A stretch of DNA of 14,518 nucleotides from Pseudomonadota bacterium. GTDB lineage: Bacteria; Pseudomonadota; Gammaproteobacteria; Burkholderiales; Burkholderiaceae. The position numbers were made by a program, and so were the translations under genes. The notes below the pieces were generated by a model. It was not told the DNA's origin. It did not search any database and saw nothing but the letters and a program-made list of their open reading frames with translations. Within the stretch, counting starts at the first letter, position 1. The number at the start of each line of letters is the position of its first letter. Location: the NCBI GenBank assembly GCA_963205525.1, contig CAUJJP010000150.1, positions 1 to 14,518 of the forward strand. The letters run 5' to 3'. Shown piece by piece: positions 335-13,998 of the stretch.

Positions 335-2131
335 ATGTCGGCGCGGCCGCGCTGGCTAAGATCGCTCCAGGCGCAGCATCGGGGCCGCAGCATGGGGCTG
401 GAATCCGGATTCTCGATCGGGGGGCGAGAGGTGGTCCCGCTCGAAGGCCGGATCGTCGGCCCGGCCGGCACGCTGCGCGTCGAGCCCAAGGCGATGGCGG
501 TGCTGCTCGAGCTGGCGCGCCACGCCGGTGAGCCGCGCTCGCGTGCGCAGATCGAGAGCGTTGTCTGGCCGCGCGGCCACATCTGCGAGGACGTGCTGAC
601 GCGCGTGATCGGCCAGCTGCGCCGTGCCCTCGGTGACGACGCCCGGCCCCCCGCGGTGCTGGAGACGATTCCGCGCCGCGGCTACCGCCTGTGCGTGGCC
701 ACGCAGCCGCTGTCCCACCACCTGGCGGCAACCGCGGCCAGGCAGGAGTCGCTGCTCGTGCTGCCGTTTCGGCATTTGGCGCCGCACGGTGACGCCTTCA
801 TCGTCGACGGCCTCACCGAGCTGCTGATCCTGCGCCTGTGCAGCCTGCGGGGGGTGCGGACGCTGTCGCGAACGACCTCGATGCAGTTTGCCGCCGCCGA
901 CACCTGCCTGGCGCAGATCGCCGCACGCAGCGGTGCCGACTGGATCGTCGAGGGCACGGTGCTGCAGGCGGGCGACCGGGTGCAGGTCATCGTCCAGCTC
1001 GTCGATGCGCGCACCGACGCCCACCTCTGGGCGGCCGACTACACGTGCGGCCTGCAGGACGTGCTGGGAATGCAGAACGAGATCGCCGAGCGTGTCGCGG
1101 CGGCGATCCGGGCGCAGCTTGGCACGGGTGTTTGCGCGCCTGCCGCGCCACCCTCGCTCGCACCCGAGACGATGCGTGCCTACCTCCGTGGCCGCCAGCT
1201 GTTGAGCCGGCGCACGGTGCCGGCGCTGCGCGAGGCGCTCCAGGCCTTCGAGACCGTGGCCGCGGCTGCGCCGGGCTGCGCGCCGGCCTGGGCGTCGCGC
1301 GCCGAGTGCGAGATGCTGCTGATGCATGACGGCGCGGAGCGCCCGGACACCCTGCTCGGGCTCTGTGAGCAGCATCTGGAGCACGCGCTCGCCCTCGATC
1401 CGCAGCTCGGGATTGGTCTGTCGACGCGCGCCGCGCTGCGCTTTTTCTTCGCGCTGGACTTCGACGGCGCGGCGCGCGACCTGGAGCGTGCGCTCGAGCT
1501 GCTGCCGAGCTACGGCCTGGTGATGGTGCAGCTTGCGAGCGTCGCCGCGGTGCGCTTTCGGTTCGCCGAGGCGCACGCCTGGATCGAGCAGGCGCTGCTC
1601 GTCGACGCGTTTGACGTCGGCATCAACATGAACGTCGGCGACCACATGATCCTGCAGCGCCGGCCGGCGGAAGCAGTGCAGGCCTTGCATCGCGCGCTGC
1701 TCATCGAGCCTGCGCACCGGCCGAGCAGGCTGCGCCTGGCCTGGGCGCTGGCGCTCGGCGGGCAGGGCGAAGCCGCGGCGGCGCGCCTGGCGGCGAGCAG
1801 ATCGAACGCCAGTGGCGGCGAGGACGACGCCGTCTGGCAGGAGTACGCCGCGCTCGTCGCCGCGGCCTTGGGCGACACCGGCAAGGCAGCGCGGCACGCC
1901 GACGAGTTGCAGCGCCTGGCGGCGACGCAGCGCGTCACTTCCTGGTCGCTTGCGCGGGCGGCGGCTGCCGCAGGCCGGCTCGACCTTGCCCTCGATGCGC
2001 TCGCCGCCGCAGCCAAGGAACGCACCAGCTCCTGGCCCTTCCTGCGCCTGACGCCGGCCTTCGACGCCCTGCACGGCAATGCGCGATTCGAGGCCCTGGC
2101 GCAGCGCCTGCCGCGCCCGCCGCAGGCCTGA
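335..2131 (+). CDS. Winged-helix transcriptional regulator with TolB-like and TPR regions
   Basis: 598 residues. Residues about 30-120 form an OmpR/CadC-type winged-helix DNA-binding domain: EPKAMAVLLELARHAGE, then VLTRVIGQLRRALGD as recognition-helix region, and the wing ETIPRRGYRL. Residues about 137-262 resemble the TolB/FlgO-like N-terminal domain found in CadC-like and adenylate-cyclase-like regulators (LLVLPF..., VDGLTELL, IVEGTV, VQLVDARTDAHLWAADY). The remainder is Ala/Leu-rich paired helices, as in tetratricopeptide repeats. No membrane helix separates DNA-binding and sensor parts, so it is probably cytosolic, unlike classic CadC. ATG 335 has GAGG just upstream; ATG 392 (residue 20) is a plausible alternative because family members usually begin close to the winged helix. 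It converges on a PEP-CTERM gene 47 nt away. A decayed second copy of its 3' part lies at 3183-3304, next to the paralogous PEP-CTERM gene, hinting that the pair belongs together. The ligand is unknown. Confidence 0.85.
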   Translation: MSARPRWLRSLQAQHRGRSMGLESGFSIGGREVVPLEGRIVGPAGTLRVEPKAMAVLLELARHAGEPRSRAQIESVVWPRGHICEDVLTRVIGQLRRALGDDARPPAVLETIPRRGYRLCVATQPLSHHLAATAARQESLLVLPFRHLAPHGDAFIVDGLTELLILRLCSLRGVRTLSRTTSMQFAAADTCLAQIAARSGADWIVEGTVLQAGDRVQVIVQLVDARTDAHLWAADYTCGLQDVLGMQNEIAERVAAAIRAQLGTGVCAPAAPPSLAPETMRAYLRGRQLLSRRTVPALREALQAFETVAAAAPGCAPAWASRAECEMLLMHDGAERPDTLLGLCEQHLEHALALDPQLGIGLSTRAALRFFFALDFDGAARDLERALELLPSYGLVMVQLASVAAVRFRFAEAHAWIEQALLVDAFDVGINMNVGDHMILQRRPAEAVQALHRALLIEPAHRPSRLRLAWALALGGQGEAAAARLAASRSNASGGEDDAVWQEYAALVAAALGDTGKAARHADELQRLAATQRVTSWSLARAAAAAGRLDLALDALAAAAKERTSSWPFLRLTPAFDALHGNARFEALAQRLPRPPQA

Positions 2132-2178
2132 CGCGGCCGGTGCGCGCGCGGGTGGCTGCGGGTGGCGCCCGTGCCGAC

Positions 2179-3036
2179 CTAGGCGTCCGCCCGTGACCGC
2201 CGACGCGCCAGGAGCAGCACGCCGATCAAGCCGGGAAGGAACAAGGCGACCGTCGCCGGTTCGGGGATGGCCGCAGCGGTGTAGTCGAAGCCCGACTCCG
2301 ACTCAATGAGAAATTCGGACACCGGCGTGCCATCGAGCAGTTCGACGTGCCCGCCCAGCCACCGCGAGGCGAACGTCGACTGGACGTCGAAACTCTGGTC
2401 CCACGGGCCCGAGAAGTCGCCTTCGACGCTGACCGACAAGGTGGAGATGAGGTTGAACCATTGACCGTTCTTGACCTTGAAGGCCCCCTCTTGAGTCTCG
2501 CCGACGTCGAGGGAGAAGTCCAGGTCGCTCGGCGAATCGATCACAAGGCTGGGCCTGGTGATCCAGGTCCCGTGGAAGTTGAGGCCCATGCTGTAGCGGA
2601 CCTGTGCGGCGGTGTGGACCCAGTAGGTCTGGGTCCGTTCCATGTGCCCGCGCAGCCCGATCGAGAAGTCGACGACGACATACTCACCGAGTGCCACATC
2701 GGGCGTCAGAACCCGCAACTGTTCCTCCCAACTGGAATACGCATCCAGGAATCCCGCGCCGCCCGTCCCATGCCCACAACAGGGCCGGTTGCCCCACATC
2801 GATGTGCTGGTGCTATTGCGGCCATGGTCCGCCATCGCCGCGGCGTCCTCGCCCTCGATGGCGTAGACCAGCGAAATCGGCCCGGCCGGTGCGGATGAGA
2901 CTGTGCGGTCCACTTCCACCGTGACGCTCGCTGGACGGGGCTGGGCAAGGGCGTGCAGCGGGTATGCGGCCAGCGCGAGCAACAGCGCGAAGACGTACGA
3001 CTGCGTTGCGGGTTTGCAGATGTGCAGGCGGTCCAT
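2179..3036 (-). CDS. PEP-CTERM sorting domain protein, copy A
   Basis: 285 residues, exported. An N-terminal signal peptide (hydrophobic core FALLLALAAYPLHALA, cleavage near residue 31) leads to a mature domain I cannot assign to a known fold. The C-terminus from residue about 257 is a textbook PEP-CTERM signal: IPEPAT, a hydrophobic helix, then ARRRSR. Such tails are recognised by exosortase (EpsH/XrtA type) and the protein is thought to be processed on its way to the cell surface or exopolysaccharide matrix. Mid-protein features are the RPCCGHGTG motif with adjacent cysteines, and GQWFNLISTLSV. ATG 3036 is chosen because the minus strand has GAGGAG at 3050-3045, 8 nt before it, and the signal peptide follows. 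It is roughly three-quarters identical by eye to copy B (3335-4204), and the two share a leader of about 120 nt. No exosortase gene is in the window. The exact function is unknown. Confidence 0.88.
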   Translation of the reverse strand: MDRLHICKPATQSYVFALLLALAAYPLHALAQPRPASVTVEVDRTVSSAPAGPISLVYAIEGEDAAAMADHGRNSTSTSMWGNRPCCGHGTGGAGFLDAYSSWEEQLRVLTPDVALGEYVVVDFSIGLRGHMERTQTYWVHTAAQVRYSMGLNFHGTWITRPSLVIDSPSDLDFSLDVGETQEGAFKVKNGQWFNLISTLSVSVEGDFSGPWDQSFDVQSTFASRWLGGHVELLDGTPVSEFLIESESGFDYTAAAIPEPATVALFLPGLIGVLLLARRRSRADA

Positions 3037-3334: not shown

Positions 3335-4204
3335 CTACGCGCCCACCTTCCTGGTCCGCCTGTGCGTCAGAAGCAGCAAGCCGATCAAGCCGGGGGCGAA
3401 CAAAGCAACCGTGGCCGGTTCGGGGATGGCCGCAGCGGTGTAGTCGAAGCCCGACGCCGACTCGATGGTGAAGTCGGACACCGGCGCGCCATCGAGCAGT
3501 TCGACCTGCCCGCCCAGCCACCGTGCGGTGAGCATCGACTGGACCTCGAAACTCTGCTCCCACGGGCCCGCGTAGGAGGCTCCGACGTTGACTGACAAGG
3601 TGGAGATGAGGTTGAACCATTGACCGTTCTGTACCTTGAAGGCCCCCTGTTGGATCTCGCCGACGTCGAGGGAGAAGTCCACTTCGCTCGGCGAATCGAT
3701 CAAGAATTCCGGCCTGTTGATCCAGCTCCCGTGGAAGTTGAGGCCCATGCTGTGGCGGACCTGCGCGTTGGAGTGGACATAGGTGGTCTTGGTCCGTTCC
3801 ATGTGCCCGTGCAGCGCGATCGAGAAGGCGACGACGACCCACGCACCGGGTGCCGCGTCGGGCGTCAGAACCCGCAACTGGTCCTCCCATCTGGAACTCG
3901 CACCCAGGAATCCCGCGCTGCCTGTCCCGGACCCGCAACAGGGCCGGGTGCCCCACATCGATGTGCTGGCGCCATCGAGGCCATAGTCCGCCCTCGCCGC
4001 GGCGTCCTCGCCCTCGATGGCGTGGTTCAGGTGGATCGGCCCGAGCGGTGCGGATGACGTCGCACCGTCGACTTCCACCGTGACGCTCTCTGGATGGAGA
4101 CTCAGTGCACCGGCGTACAGCGGGTATGCGGCCAGCGCAAGCAGCAGCGCGGCGCTGCGCACCAGGATCCCGGGCTTGGAGAGGTGGGGGCGGGTGATGG
4201 TCAT
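3335..4204 (-). CDS. PEP-CTERM sorting domain protein, copy B
   Basis: 289 residues and a clear paralog of copy A. The signal peptide core is SAALLLALAAYPLYAGA. The mature region keeps VTVEVD, IEGEDAAA, TSMWG.RPCCG.GTG, QLRVLTPD, HMERT, MGLNFHG, FSLDVGE, GQWFNLISTLSV, SRWLGG-like ARWLGG, VELLDG and SGFDYTAAA. The C-terminus from residue about 260 is IPEPAT, a hydrophobic helix, then THRRTRK, the PEP-CTERM exosortase signal. It is predicted to be exported and processed at the envelope. ATG 4204 is preferred: AAGGAG lies on the minus strand at 4218-4213, 8 nt before it, and the signal peptide starts there. The frame stays open far upstream through the Mrp gene, but that is only a high-GC shadow. 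Its stop lies about 30 nt from the regulator remnant. The paired cysteines and the length are shared with copy A, so both copies look intact and probably functional. The molecular role is unknown. Confidence 0.88.
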   Translation of the reverse strand: MTITRPHLSKPGILVRSAALLLALAAYPLYAGALSLHPESVTVEVDGATSSAPLGPIHLNHAIEGEDAAARADYGLDGASTSMWGTRPCCGSGTGSAGFLGASSRWEDQLRVLTPDAAPGAWVVVAFSIALHGHMERTKTTYVHSNAQVRHSMGLNFHGSWINRPEFLIDSPSEVDFSLDVGEIQQGAFKVQNGQWFNLISTLSVNVGASYAGPWEQSFEVQSMLTARWLGGQVELLDGAPVSDFTIESASGFDYTAAAIPEPATVALFAPGLIGLLLLTHRRTRKVGA

Positions 4205-10045: not shown

Positions 10046-10320
10046 GCCCTTTGCTGGCCGGCGCCACCGGCATCACCTTGCTGCTGTACGCGCTGGCGCT
10101 GGCCGTCGCCTTGCTGCGCATGTGGCGCGGGCCGGGCGCACCGGACCGCGTCCTGGCGCTGGACTTCGCCTCCGTGCTGGGGGTGCTGGTGCTGGGGGTG
10201 CTGGCGATCCGCGACGGCAGCCAGAACCTGTTCGAAGCGGCGCTGCTGCTCGCGCTGTGCGGATTCGTCGTCTCGCTGGCGCTGGCCAAGTTCCTGCTGC
10301 GAGGCGAGGTGATCGAATGA
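10042..10320 (+). CDS. mrpF: Mrp antiporter subunit F
   Basis: 92 residues with three membrane helices. The family motif [19 protein letters not shown] is present, followed by a helix ending at [20 protein letters not shown] 10042 overlaps the mrpE stop by 4 nt (ATGA), and AAGGAG at 10028-10033 lies 8 nt upstream. MrpF is a small hydrophobic subunit needed for a complete Mrp complex; some family members have also been linked to bile-salt or cholate efflux. The length is usual for the family. The stop overlaps the start of mrpG. Confidence 0.93.
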
Positions 10321-10691
10321 CGGCGACCTGGTCCGAATGGCTGGTGGCCGCGCTGCTGCCGGCCAGCGGCGTCCTGGTGCTGGTGGCGGCACTCGGCCTG
10401 TGGCGGCTGCCCGACCTGTTCCAGCGCCTGCACGCGCCGGCGCTGGCGTCCACGCTGGGGAGCTGGCTGGTCGCGCTGGCGTCGGTCATCCACTTCAGCG
10501 CCCTTGAGGGCCTGGCGCTGCAGGCCTGGCTGGTCATCGTCGTGCTGTCCATCACCGCGCCGGTGACCACCGTGGTGCTCGCGCGTGCGGCGCTGTTCCG
10601 CGGCCGGCGCGACGGCGCCGCGCTGCCGGCCTCGCCCGCTGGCGCGACGCCGCCGGCCGAGTCCGTTGCGCCGAGCCGGGGAAGGCCATGA
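10317..10691 (+). CDS. mrpG: Mrp antiporter subunit G
   Basis: 124 residues. ATG 10317 overlaps the mrpF stop (ATGA). It has three membrane helices and the MrpG hallmark GLWRLPDLFQRLHAPALAST; the family form is R-x-PD-x-x-x-R-x-H-A-x-x-x-A-x-T. A later helix, WLVIVVLSITAPVTTVVLARAA, carries the conserved TAPV. The last 25 or so residues are a low-complexity A/P/S/R tail beyond the last helix. It completes the Mrp complex. The stop TGA 10689-10691 overlaps the ATG (10688) that opens the first of two 62-nt repeats leading into the stress protein gene. Confidence 0.93.
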   Translation: MTATWSEWLVAALLPASGVLVLVAALGLWRLPDLFQRLHAPALASTLGSWLVALASVIHFSALEGLALQAWLVIVVLSITAPVTTVVLARAALFRGRRDGAALPASPAGATPPAESVAPSRGRP

Positions 10692-10749
10692 GCGCGCCGG
10701 GCCGCCCCAAGCGCTCATACCGTAGCCCTTCAAGGGCGGAGGTTGCCTT
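10688..10749 (+). repeat. 62-nt coupling repeat, copy 1
   Basis: The unit is identical to the next 62 nt. It opens with ATGAGCGCGCCG, contains the inverted match GCGCTCAT (10711-10718), a 13-nt palindrome GCCCTTCAAGGGC (10725-10737) and a Shine-Dalgarno GGAGG (10738-10742), and ends 7 nt later where the next ATG starts. The ATG overlaps the mrpG stop. It opens a 21-codon frame (MSAPGRPKRSYR then SPSRAEVAL) whose TGA (10751-10753) overlaps the ATG of copy 2. I recall similar SAPGRPK-type N-terminal runs in annotated Burkholderiales proteins, so this is probably a dispersed intergenic repeat of that order. Whether the peptide is made is unknown. Confidence 0.9.
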
Positions 10750-10811
10750 ATGAGCGCGCCGGGCCGCCCCAAGCGCTCATACCGTAGCCCTTCAAGGGCG
10801 GAGGTTGCCTT
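10750..10811 (+). repeat. 62-nt coupling repeat, copy 2
   Basis: Exact second copy. Its 21-codon frame starts at ATG 10750 and stops at 10813-10815, overlapping the ATG of the stress protein gene at 10812. Internal parts are GCGCTCAT at 10773-10780, GCCCTTCAAGGGC at 10787-10799 and GGAGG at 10800-10804. The stress gene itself begins ATGAGCGCG, the first 9 nt of a third unit. The original gene junction was therefore probably a direct mrpG/usp ATGA overlap into which the units were added. Confidence 0.9.
10800..10804 (+). promoter_or_regulatory. Repeat-borne ribosome binding site of the universal stress protein
   Basis: GGAGG lies 7 nt before ATG 10812. It belongs to the 62-nt repeat, so the repeat supplies translation initiation for the downstream gene. 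GCGCTCAT at 10773-10780 could pair with ATGAGCGC at 10812-10819 and enclose this site in a loop. Confidence 0.7.
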
Positions 10812-11708
10812 ATGAGCGCGAGCACCGTCTTGCACCGCATCCTCGCCGCCACCGACCTGTCGGCGCCGGCACGCCAGGCCGCGCAGCGCGCGGCGCGGCT
10901 GGCGCGCGAGACCGGCGCCAGCCTGACCCTGTGCCACGCCCTGGCGCAGGCGCCGCTGCAGGAGCTGCGCCAGTGGCTGGGGGCGCCGGCCGCCGACGAG
11001 CTGCTGGCGCGTTCGCGCGAGGAGCTGCAGGCGCTGGCGCTGGAGCTGCAGGGCCTGCGCCACGGCCCGGTGGCGGCGCGGCTGGACGAGGGCGCGGTGA
11101 TCGAGACCCTGATGCGTGCCGCCGAGATCGAGCGTGCCGAGCTGCTGGTGCTGGCCGCGCGCGGCGTCGGTTTCCTGCGCCGGCTGGTGCTGGGCACCAC
11201 CGCCGAGCGGCTGCTGCGCTGCACCGCGATTCCGCTGCTGGTGGTGCGCCAGCCGCCGCACGAGCCCTACCGGCGTGCCCTGCTGGCGCTGGACTTCTCG
11301 CCCTGGACGCCGGCCGTCATCGCCCAGGCGCGCGCGGTGGCGCCGCACGCGCGCTGGCTGCTGTTCCATGCCTGGCAGGTGCCGTTCGAGGAGAAGCTGC
11401 GCTTCGCCGGCGTGGACGCGGCGACGATCGCCCACTACCGCGAGCAGGCACGCCTGCGCGCCACCCAGCAGCTGCACGCCGCGGCCGAGCAGGCCGGACT
11501 CAAGCCCGGCCTGTGGGAGCCCTGCCTGGTGGAAGGCGATGCGAGCCTGCGCCTGGTCGAGCAGGAACAGCTGCGCGCCTGCGACCTGGTGGTGATAGGC
11601 AAGCACGGCCAGAGCGCGGCCGAGGACTTGCTGCTGGGCAGCACCACCAAGCACCTGCTGGCCGAGGGGCTGAGCGACGTGCTGATCAGCACCTTGCCGG
11701 CGCGCTGA
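10812..11708 (+). CDS. Universal stress protein with two UspA domains
   Basis: 298 residues in two tandem UspA-like domains, about 1-148 and 150-298. Domain 1 starts STVLHRILAATDLSAPARQAAQRA and ends LGTTAERLLRCTAIPLLVV. Its ATP-loop is imperfect: the expected first Gly of G-2X-G-9X-G-(S/T) is Ala. Domain 2 starts YRRALLALDFSPWTPAVI and has a full loop, GKHGQSAAEDLLLGSTTKHLL, with exact G-2X-G-9X-G-S spacing, so nucleotide binding is more likely there. It is cytosolic. Double-domain Usp proteins bind ATP and support survival under stress, but the precise action is unclear. ATG 10812 has the repeat-borne GGAGG upstream and continues the mrp chain of overlapping stops and starts, so it is probably co-expressed with the antiporter in salt or alkaline stress. 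No clear intrinsic terminator follows; 147 nt separate it from acs. Confidence 0.92.
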   Translation: MSASTVLHRILAATDLSAPARQAAQRAARLARETGASLTLCHALAQAPLQELRQWLGAPAADELLARSREELQALALELQGLRHGPVAARLDEGAVIETLMRAAEIERAELLVLAARGVGFLRRLVLGTTAERLLRCTAIPLLVVRQPPHEPYRRALLALDFSPWTPAVIAQARAVAPHARWLLFHAWQVPFEEKLRFAGVDAATIAHYREQARLRATQQLHAAAEQAGLKPGLWEPCLVEGDASLRLVEQEQLRACDLVVIGKHGQSAAEDLLLGSTTKHLLAEGLSDVLISTLPAR

Positions 11709-11855: not shown

Positions 11856-13826
11856 ATGAGCGAAAGCACCGAGTCCCGGATCTACGAACCCAGCGCCGCT
11901 GTCGTCAAGGGCGCGCACATCTCGGGCATGGATGCCTACCGCAAGCTCTGCGCCGAGGCCGAGGCCGACTACGAGGGCTACTGGGCGCGCCTGGCACGTG
12001 AATTCGTGAGCTGGAAGACGCCGTTCACCCAGGTGCTGGACCAGAGCCAAGCGCCGTTCTACAAGTGGTTCGCCGACGGCACGCTCAACGTCTCCTACAA
12101 CTGCCTGGACCGCAACGTCGAGCGCGGCCTGGGCGACAAGACCGCGATCATCTTCGAGGCCGACGACGGCGCCGTCACCAAGGTCAGCTACAAGGAACTG
12201 CTGGCCACCGTCAGCCGCTTCGCCAACGTGCTCAAGGCGCGCGGCGTGAAGAAGGGCGACCGGGTCGTCATCTACATGCCGATGAGCGTCGAAGGTGTGG
12301 CCGCGATGCAGGCCTGCGCGCGCATCGGCGCCACCCATTCGGTGGTGTTCGGCGGCTTCTCGGCGCAGAGCCTGCGCGACCGCATCCACGACGCCGAGGC
12401 GGTGATGGTGATCACCGCCGACGAGCAGGCGCGCGGCGGCAAGCACCTGGCGCTGAAGGCGATCGTCGACGAAGCGCTGGCCATGCCCGGCACCGAGAGC
12501 ATCCGCGACGTCATCGTCTACCGCCGCACCGGCGGCCAGGTGGCCTGGAAGGAGGGGCGCGACCTCTGGCTGCACGAGCTGCTGGCCGGCGCCAGCACGC
12601 AGTGCGAACCCGAGTGGGTGGGTGCCGAGCACCCGCTGTTCCTGCTCTACACCAGCGGCTCCACCGGCAAGCCCAAGGGCGTGCAGCACAGCACCGGTGG
12701 CTACCTGCTGCAGGCGGCGCTGAGCTGCAAGTGGACCTTCGACCTCAAGGACGACGACGTCTTCTGGTGCACCGCCGACATCGGCTGGGTCTCCGGCCAC
12801 AGCTACATCAGCTTCGGCCCGCTGGCGCTGGGCGCGACCGAGATCGTGTTCGAGGGCGTGCCCACCTATCCGGACGCCGGGCGCTTCTGGAAGATGATCG
12901 AGCGCCACCGGGTGAGCGTCTTCTACACCGCGCCGACCGCCATCCGCAGCCTGATCAAGGCCGCCGAGTCCAACGAGGCGGTGCACCCGCGCAAGTACGA
13001 CCTCAGCAGCCTGCGCATCCTGGGCTCGGTCGGCGAGCCGATCAACCCGGCGGCCTGGGAGTGGTATTACCAGAACGTCGGCGGCAGCCGCTGCCCGATC
13101 GTAGACACCTGGTGGCAGACCGAGACCGGTGGCCACATGATCAACCCGCTGCCGGGTGCCACCCCGCTGGTGCCGGGCTCCTGCACCCTGCCGCTGCCCG
13201 GCATCATGGCCGCCATCGTCGACGAGACCGGCACCGAGGTGCCGCACGGGCAGGGCGGCATCCTGGTCGTGAAGAAGCCCTGGCCGAGCATGATCCGCAC
13301 CATCTGGCGCGATCCGGACCGCTACGTGGCGAGCTACTTCCCGGCCGAGCTCAAGGGCTGCTACCTGGCCGGCGACGGCGCCAGCCGCGACGCCAAGACC
13401 GGCTACTTCACCATCACCGGCCGCATCGACGACGTGCTCAACGTCTCCGGCCACCGCATGGGCACGATGGAGATCGAGTCCGCGCTCGTGAGCTGCACCG
13501 AGCTGGTGGCCGAGGCGGCAGTGGTCGGCCGCCCCGACGAGACCACCGGCGAGGCGATCTGCGCCTTCGTCGTCCTCAAGCGCCCGCGGCCCAGCGGCGA
13601 GGAGGCGAAGAAGATCGCCAACGAGCTGCGCAACTGGGTGGCCAAGGAGATCGGCCCGATCGCCAAGCCCAAGGACATCCGCTTCGGCGACAACCTGCCC
13701 AAGACCCGCAGCGGCAAGATCATGCGCCGCCTGCTGCGCAACATCGCACGCGGCGAGACCATCACCCAGGACACCTCGACCCTGGAGAACCCGGCCATCC
13801 TGGATCAGTTGGCGCAGACCAACTGA
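11856..13826 (+). CDS. acs: Acetyl-CoA synthetase (AMP-forming)
   Basis: 656 residues, the normal length. It activates acetate with ATP to acetyl-AMP and then forms acetyl-CoA (EC 6.2.1.1); it is cytosolic and serves acetate assimilation. ANL-superfamily motifs occur in order: A3 loop [11 protein letters not shown] at 265-275; TWWQTETGG at 418-426, with the tryptophan usual in the acetate pocket of short-chain synthetases; hinge region [21 protein letters not shown]; and the A10 lysine Lys621 in [14 protein letters not shown], the catalytic lysine that Pat-type acetyltransferases modify in relatives. The N-terminal domain ([30 protein letters not shown]) is complete. ATG 11856 follows AGGAGA by 5 nt. 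It stands alone between the stress gene and a terminator. Its stop codon is inside a hairpin, and its last 12 codons are repeated 155 nt downstream. Confidence 0.97.
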
Positions 13827-13843
13827 TCCGCGGGCCGCGCGCC
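13788..13843 (+). repeat. 56-nt direct repeat, copy 1 (acs 3' end)
   Basis: It covers the last 12 acs codons ([12 protein letters not shown]), the stop and 17 nt of flank. An exact copy lies at 13943-13998, 155 nt downstream. Inside, arms GGATCAGTTGG (13802-13812) and CCAACTGATCC (13819-13829) form a perfect 11-bp stem with a 6-nt loop that contains the stop codon in its 3' arm. The copy is too long and exact to be chance. Confidence 0.95.
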
Positions 13844-13854
13844 AGCGCGGCCCG
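13831..13854 (+). terminator. Strong GC hairpin directly after acs
   Basis: CGGGCCGCGC (13831-13840) and GCGCGGCCCG (13845-13854) pair perfectly over 10 bp around the loop GCCA, 4 nt after the acs stop. There is no T-tract. It stands back to back with the stop-codon hairpin at 13802-13829, so the two together would make a very stable mRNA 3' structure. The second repeat copy keeps only the 5' arm. Confidence 0.5.
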
Positions 13855-13890
13855 GCGCCCGGCAGGGCGCGGCCAGGTACCGGCGCAGGC

Positions 13891-13916
13891 TCACATGCGC
13901 GGGCACGCGCATGTGA
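13891..13916 (+). other. 10-bp inverted repeat between the acs 3'-end copies
   Basis: TCACATGCGC (13891-13900) and GCGCATGTGA (13907-13916) are perfect inverted copies around the loop GGGCAC. A second small hairpin, GGCCC-GCA-GGGCC, follows at 13918-13930. Neither has a T-tract. They fill the spacer of the duplicated region and could be RNA structures or the trace of a palindromic repeat element. Confidence 0.6.
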
Positions 13917-13942
13917 AGGCCCGCAGGGCCGGCCGCAGCCAC

Positions 13943-13998
13943 AACCCGGCCATCCTGGATCAGTTGGCGCAGACCAACTGATCCGCGGGCCGCGCGCC
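13943..13998 (+). repeat. 56-nt direct repeat, copy 2 (non-coding copy of the acs 3' end)
   Basis: Exact copy of 13788-13843, including the 11-bp hairpin (13957-13984). It has no upstream coding context in its frame, so it is not translated as acs. It sits just before the intrinsic terminator at 14008. The original acs-to-terminator spacing was probably copy 1 running straight into the terminator, and 155 nt was added. Confidence 0.95.

Follow-up and report, generated by a model that had tools for sequence, protein, structure and literature searches.

The window, by which we mean the whole stretch of DNA that was analysed (14,518 nucleotides of the Burkholderiaceae contig CAUJJP010000150.1), carries genes matching antiporter subunits of the MrpA, C, D and G types (NCBIfam), and between mrpG and a usp gene downstream of these it carries a tandem repeat that Tandem Repeats Finder placed at 10688-10820 with a period of 62, 2.1 copies and a match of 100%. 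The repeat consists of two 62-nt units, 10688-10749 and 10750-10811, which are identical to each other, and 10812-10820 is the first 9 nt of the unit again. The features of this locus are as follows.

10317..10691, plus strand: mrpG-type antiporter subunit, 125 codons including the stop (TIGR01300, 69 bits, cut-off 63.1)
10688..10749, plus strand: unit 1, cassette of 62 nt (repeat search, comparison)
10750..10811, plus strand: unit 2, same as unit 1 (repeat search, comparison)
10688..10753, plus strand: predicted mini-ORF 1, 21 codons and a TGA over the next ATG
10750..10815, plus strand: predicted mini-ORF 2, 21 codons and a TGA over the usp ATG
10695..10711 in unit 1 and 10757..10773 in unit 2, plus strand: fixed core CGCCGGGCCGCCCCAAG (comparison across copies)
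10688..10718, plus strand: predicted hairpin 1 of unit 1, arms ATGAGCG and CGCTCAT flanking the core, containing the ATG of the unit (single-unit fold)
10719..10743 in unit 1 and 10781..10805 in unit 2, plus strand: predicted hairpin 2, ACC, stem, GGAGGT, with the Shine-Dalgarno sequence (SD) as its 3' foot (single-unit fold)
10812..11708, plus strand: usp gene, its first 9 nt, ATGAGCGCG, being the start of the unit

The TGA stop of mrpG is part of the ATGA at 10688-10691, and all three joints, mrpG to unit 1, unit 1 to unit 2 and unit 2 to usp, are ATGA, which is one of the two stop/start overlaps (4 nt or 1 nt) that define termination-reinitiation pairs. Each unit translates into MSAPGRPKRSYRSPSRAEVAL followed by a stop, 21 codons whose stop overlaps the following ATG. 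GGAGG with a 7-nt spacer is supplied by the units ahead of the ATGs at 10750 and 10812, and upstream of the first ATG (10688) the sequence is GGGGAAGGCC, which belongs to mrpG. A preliminary description of this repeat as two exact 62-nt units with ATGA at each joint, an SD in each unit and a usp gene that begins with 9 nt of the unit proved exact. The usp product is UspA-type; PF00582 is found in its listed homologues, of which the nearest (P0002-P0006) share 80-89% identity with it, and the NCBIfam match, to UspE, is weak only. Within the window a 20-nt core probe, with up to 3 mismatches allowed, matched at the two units only, and Rfam at gathering score gave 0 matches in the window. Two other observations concern distant parts of the window. 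In 13788-13985 the 3' end of acs and its TGA stop are duplicated exactly over at least 43 nt (13788-13830 and 13943-13985, period 155), with the palindrome CACATGCGCGGGCACGCGCATGTG between the copies, and on the minus strand two adjacent paralogous proteins (2179-3036 and about 3335-4170) have ends of the form IPEPATVALF.PGLIG.LLL, which we take to be of the PEP-CTERM type.

Further copies of the 17-nt core, CGCCGGGCCGYCCCAAG, are present in contigs of IMG/VR. When 67 distinct copies from IMG/VR and from plasmid L012 were compared, 43 of them paired at at least six of seven positions to the left and right of the core; the mean was 5.03 of 7 compared to 2.46 for shuffled partners, the largest of 1000 shuffles being 3.0, and the paired arms differ in sequence among these copies. 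Three IMG/VR copies (L027, L041 and L022) have one arm mismatch or wobble in an otherwise standard body. The same was seen in a single genome, G013, where 22 of the 45 copies read pair at all seven arm positions and the mean is 5.58, while shuffling the partners gave 3.22 and, in 2000 shuffles, no value above 3.89. In the long-form copies L146-L179 of this genome the 45-nt bodies are nearly identical and the 7-nt self-complementary arms are quite different, and among the 22 copies with perfect arms there are 10 pairs with at most 2 differences in the body and at least 3 in the arms. From this comparison the arms of the long form in G013 seem to change en bloc.

The family has two forms, a long one in which the core is followed by a GC-rich hairpin and a short one, that of the window, which has an SD at its end. 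A 16-nt core was present, in up to 48 copies, in 29 of the 33 genomes or records reached via usp relatives and plasmids, and the reversed pattern was present in none of them. A screen of 200 genomes from the order found the 17-nt core in 22, with a maximum of 140 copies and 0 matches for the reversed control, and ATGAGC shortly before the core was found in 105 of 399 genomes of the family. In an order-wide search the strict pattern of the SD form was found in 4 of 399, and thus the SD form looks concentrated in one family. The plasmid search gave 2 matches and the phage search none, and a search of the genus around G140 gave G140 itself only. We also observed tandem cores with spacings near 80-111 nt in G556, G609 and G628, the last with 140 exact cores over 4.9 Mb of sequence, and in L083 a diverged core-like hairpin, GCCCGGCCGCCCGCGGGCGGC, which by eye seems to be placed just before the start of a usp relative. 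G590 and G013 are also among the genomes rich in copies.

Where the copies lie was examined on 127 distinct copies, which came from 30 tool-chosen loci, 80 hand-chosen regions from listed places, other fetched loci and the window. Of these, 94 had no CCCC run right after the core and were taken as the short, SD-type form. A copy was counted as lying at a junction when an upstream frame of at least 60 codons ended at the TGA of its ATGA, a flank of at least 90 codons being required. This was so for 72 of 92 short-form copies (frame 0, 50; frame 2, 20) and for 118 of the 336 ATGAGC sites that these loci contain elsewhere (35.1%; frame 0, 60.1%; frame 2, 63.1%). The Fisher p of 1e-13 for this preference is overstated because copies share descent, and unit lengths too are inherited within subfamilies. 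The copies had been selected by their left ATGAGC, with the exception of the BLAST set from G140, in which 54 matches, not all of them elements, were listed and the 24 loci read gave 16 single or array sites. At these G140 sites 12 of the 15 with flank lie at a TGA junction, and 6 of the 16 consist of 2 or 3 units in an array. On Variovorax plasmids the same hydrolase gene is preceded by the 62-nt form on one plasmid and by the 65-nt form on another; the 62-nt copy (L011) precedes its start without an upstream overlap. On the Variovorax plasmid L012 a tail-like stretch, GGAGGTTGCCTT, precedes the unit before the hydrolase gene, as if an array had been cut, and an IS110-family transposase (1550-2806, minus strand) lies about 190 nt before it. 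Comparison of the copies shows that the element is dispersed and sits at start codons, above all at the 4-nt overlaps ATGA and GTGA, and that it starts with ATGA and ends right before the next RTG.

Empty and filled sites were compared at two places. The long-form copy L152 of G013, which is also in G020, is missing from the relatives G002 and G088. Its target is duplicated, with CTCATGC on both sides of the insert and a single TTCATGC in G002 and GTCATGC in G088, and the BLAST overlaps of 6 and 7 nt correspond to a target duplication of 6-7 bp; CTCATGC contains a start codon of the opposite strand. Because the sequences left and right of the core are so often complementary, the idea of templated copying was raised, and for L152 templating of the right arm from the host flank is ruled out, as the empty site puts both arms inside the insert. 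With short-form copies, the ATGA(GC) that occurs twice may be element sequence and not a target duplication.

The second place is a junction between an ABC-transporter ATPase and a permease, both named by eye from sequence, for which 60 genomes were searched; it was read in 37, and both anchors were present in 34. A bare RTGA overlap was found in 26 of the 34, and 8 have an insert exactly at the overlap, of 65 nt in G013, G080, G063, G035 and G078, 62 nt in G069, 59 nt in G053 and two units of 65 nt in G041. All 26 empty and all 8 filled junctions have a stop/start overlap, and all 8 filled ones keep the upstream stop, an open mini-ORF of 20-22 codons and ATGA at every joint. The core with at most 1 mismatch is present in only 4 of the 8 inserts (G013, G080, G063 and G041); G035 and G069 were assigned by eye from the tail, and for G053 and G078 the assignment uses only place, size and frame. 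At this junction the near relatives of G013 (G070, G065 and G002) have no insert. The flank tree requires 6 changes of the filled state, at least 5 of them forced by supported branches, 5 when G053 and G078 are left out and 3 with the four sure cases only, where a change may be a gain or an exact loss. Judged by these alignments, the ABC junction is the same chain that the preliminary description recognised in the window, here with 0, 1 or 2 units and at an unrelated operon. An empty mrpG-usp site was not found among 42 usp relatives, in which the core (up to 2 mismatches) is absent at the junction and the upstream gene is not necessarily mrpG.

Of the 94 short-form copies, 63 had a callable downstream start, defined by an SD and a long frame, and 31 had none. 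In 29 of the 63 the element is fused in frame to the downstream gene, in 27 it ends in an RTGA overlap, in 5 the stop falls 2-10 nt short of the start, and 2 copies (L346 and L357) are uncoupled. The distance to the next start is 60 nt in 26 copies, 65 in 18, 77 in 4 and 59 in 3; it is 62, 63, 66 and 74 in 2 copies each and 61, 82, 85 and 90 in 1 each, so that modulo 3 it is 0 in 31, 2 in 29 and 1 in 3. RTGA is found at 60 of the 63 downstream starts. The 62-nt spacing of the units in the window is also found in G402 (L226). The 60-nt form encodes MSPPGRPKGEYRSAQHEGTP and similar peptides, and a composite of this peptide was matched by 235 database proteins in a search that could find only proteins of about 46-147 residues. 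Fourteen of these, which are unrelated proteins, were read, and each has 2-3 runs at its N-terminus, in 9 of them before a Pfam domain. N-terminal runs of the MSAPGRPK type, which the preliminary description had mentioned for Burkholderiales, thus do occur in database proteins. The domains that follow the runs include PF03652, PF01121, PF02594, PF02686 and PF01722, which we take to be the YqgF, CoaE, DUF167, GatC and BolA families.

The predicted hairpins were examined both by folding and by comparison. A single unit folds moderately better than its shuffles (z -1.92; hairpin 2 alone -1.37), and in a 156-nt fold both units pair mutually rather than as separate hairpins (z -4.07). Because the two units pair mutually when folded together, the fold by itself is no proof of the hairpins, and comparison among copies does more to support them. 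The arms of hairpin 1 covary from copy to copy, and hairpin 2 has compensatory changes among relatives. For hairpin 2, which covers the SD, a tail of the form ACC-3-4-3-4-3-GGT fits 54 of the 94 short-form copies, and the 32 distinct rows were aligned. In these, 97.3% of the cells are paired, 20 cells are changed on both sides, and such both-side changes occur in three of the four pairs of the inner stem. Covariation was 0.274 compared to 0.103 after shuffling, with 0 of 500 shuffles as high, and pairing drops to 22-49% in slid structures; in the plain number of stem pairs with both-side changes, which is 3, 47 of the 500 shuffles did as well. The tail of the units in the window is the same SD hairpin with a loop 2 nt longer.

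The element resembles several known systems. Rickettsia palindromic elements (RPE) are described in PMC10969869 as small mobile palindromes that insert into coding sequence without breaking the frame and lengthen the protein by a peptide. The same paper reports in-frame fusions for some MITEs too, so that the insertion of elements into reading frames is already known. By that account RPE are about 150 bp long and integrate into genes, whereas the element here is about 59-77 nt long and lies at gene starts or stop/start overlaps. Unlike RPE it carries its own ATG and SD, and instead of in-frame insertions within an ORF its copies are found at the start codon, 29 of 63 as in-frame extensions and 27 of 63 ending in RTGA overlaps rather than fusions. 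Like a MITE it is small, non-autonomous and dispersed, and L152 has a direct repeat of its target, that is, a target-site duplication. Unlike a MITE it has no terminal inverted repeats in the two elements tested, as only 9 of 16 positions match in L152 and 7 of 16 in the window unit, values reached by 46% and 73% of shuffles, respectively. It shares hairpins, many copies and frequent arrays with REP/RAYT repeats as these are presented in PMC2817692, but it sits at start codons and its copy number does not track Y1_Tnp. In the 31 genomes compared, whose assemblies are partly fragmentary, Y1_Tnp was found in 23, and copy number correlated neither with Y1_Tnp (Spearman 0.06) nor with reverse transcriptase (Spearman 0.16). 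The core was within 3 kb of 0 of the 28 Y1 loci read, and no Y1 match was obtained in G008 (19 copies) or G016 (14 copies), again in assemblies that are partly fragmentary. RAYT/Y1 and reverse transcriptase were rejected as movers for lack of correlation with copy number, and within these two families no mobilising gene was found. We file it as a small non-autonomous mobile repeat and not as a MITE, since the two elements tested lack terminal inverted repeats, nor as REP/RAYT. Finally, gene pairs coupled by termination-reinitiation through ATGA or TGATG, as outlined in PMC6728339 and PMC10666635, resemble the joints of the window in their ATGA and in an SD-like stretch upstream, but unlike in ordinary coupled pairs it is here an insertion, with its mini-ORF, that restores the overlap. 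In searchable full texts, which include few subscription journals, the core and the peptides were not found and a 12-nt word was shared at most, by two papers, and among part of the matching titles no element specialised for ATGA overlaps was found.

Very probably, then, the two units of the window are copies of a short, non-autonomous, nearly translation-transparent mobile element of Burkholderiales, the transparency being predicted from its frames. Comparison establishes its anatomy, dispersal, empty sites, junction preference and frame keeping. The suggestion made at the outset, that a self-propagating repeat might have become harmless inside operons, draws support from the dispersal, the empty sites, the ATGA preference and the 0, 1 or 2 units at one orthologous ABC junction. 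The other idea put forward there is that the units may be a tunable translational spacer. A unit confined to this locus, or without relation to start codons, had been named as the finding that would speak against it, and what the survey of copies gave was a dispersed family with 72 of 92 copies at junctions compared to 118 of 336 control sites. That first reading was largely right; it overlooked the hairpin core, the hairpin that covers the SD and the in-frame 60-nt subfamily, and did not see that 62 nt is one length of several.

Another explanation, possible but in our judgement improbable, is a neutral parasite like a MITE or REP that inserts widely near starts, where those insertions that spare translation survive, so that coupling is an effect of survival and not a property of the element. 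It is consistent with this that members with the GC hairpin and no SD tail are also at start codons, even antisense as in L152, and that a TGA junction is the site of 17 of the 31 GC-hairpin members that have both ATGAGC and flank. A parasite of this kind does not, however, lead one to expect the open frame, the SD near the next start and the compensated SD hairpin of the short subfamilies, or that at one junction the 62- and 65-nt versions, and likewise a 59-nt insert of unsure descent, keep the frame. Rather doubtful is the explanation that mini-ORFs and hairpins form a regulatory leader, a translational switch for the ratio of MrpG to Usp in which the number of units is the dial. The SD inside a hairpin and the 0-2 units among relatives at one junction would suit a leader, but the same element is found before many different genes, and 26 of 34 relatives at the tested junction are without it. 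That the MSxPGRPK peptide is itself a useful, selected product is very unlikely: the in-frame copies of 60 nt do share a conserved peptide, but the conserved part is the DNA core, present outside such frames in long-form copies, and the C-terminal halves differ in the 62- and 65-nt forms. Hardly any credence is left for a purely local origin, in which slippage duplicated in tandem a sequence that had never been mobile. The identity of the two units, like that of a recent duplication, would suggest such an origin, but as a full account it is refuted by related units in other loci and genomes and by the empty sites; the second unit may be a product of slippage or may have been inserted beside the first.

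How a mobile element of this sort could be tolerated inside an operon can be pictured as follows. Comparison shows that a stop is left to the upstream gene and a start to the downstream gene, the SD and the reading frame between them coming from the element in one of two modes, either as a 20-codon in-frame N-terminal extension or as a mini-ORF that closes with a TGA on the following start. In the window a ribosome finishing mrpG would restart at the ATG of unit 1, open both hairpins while translating the mini-ORF and thereby free the SD, stop at the next ATGA and restart there, and therefore units could be gained or lost without uncoupling usp from mrpG. The element would persist in operons because it is translation-transparent. 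In the reporters of PMC10666635 hardly any termination-reinitiation coupling is left once the gap is about 20 nt, and PMC6728339 states that an SD often matters for it. It follows from this gap limit that 62 or 124 nt left untranslated should cut usp off from mrpG, and that coupled junctions should tolerate insertions badly.

We think it somewhat probable that the niche of the element is the 4-nt stop/start overlap itself, that is, that it targets ATGA, has evolved a translation-transparent body, stacks in operons and, in its 60-nt form, seeds N-terminal extensions. For genome annotation there are two cautions, that start codons beside such repeats are ambiguous and that some short 'hypothetical proteins' of the MSPPGRPKGEYRSAQ type are repeat-derived. 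An element that evades the gap limit would be a natural test bed in which the same gene pair is found in related species with 0, 1 or 2 chained mini-ORFs, and it suggests a route by which proteins may acquire short N-terminal runs.
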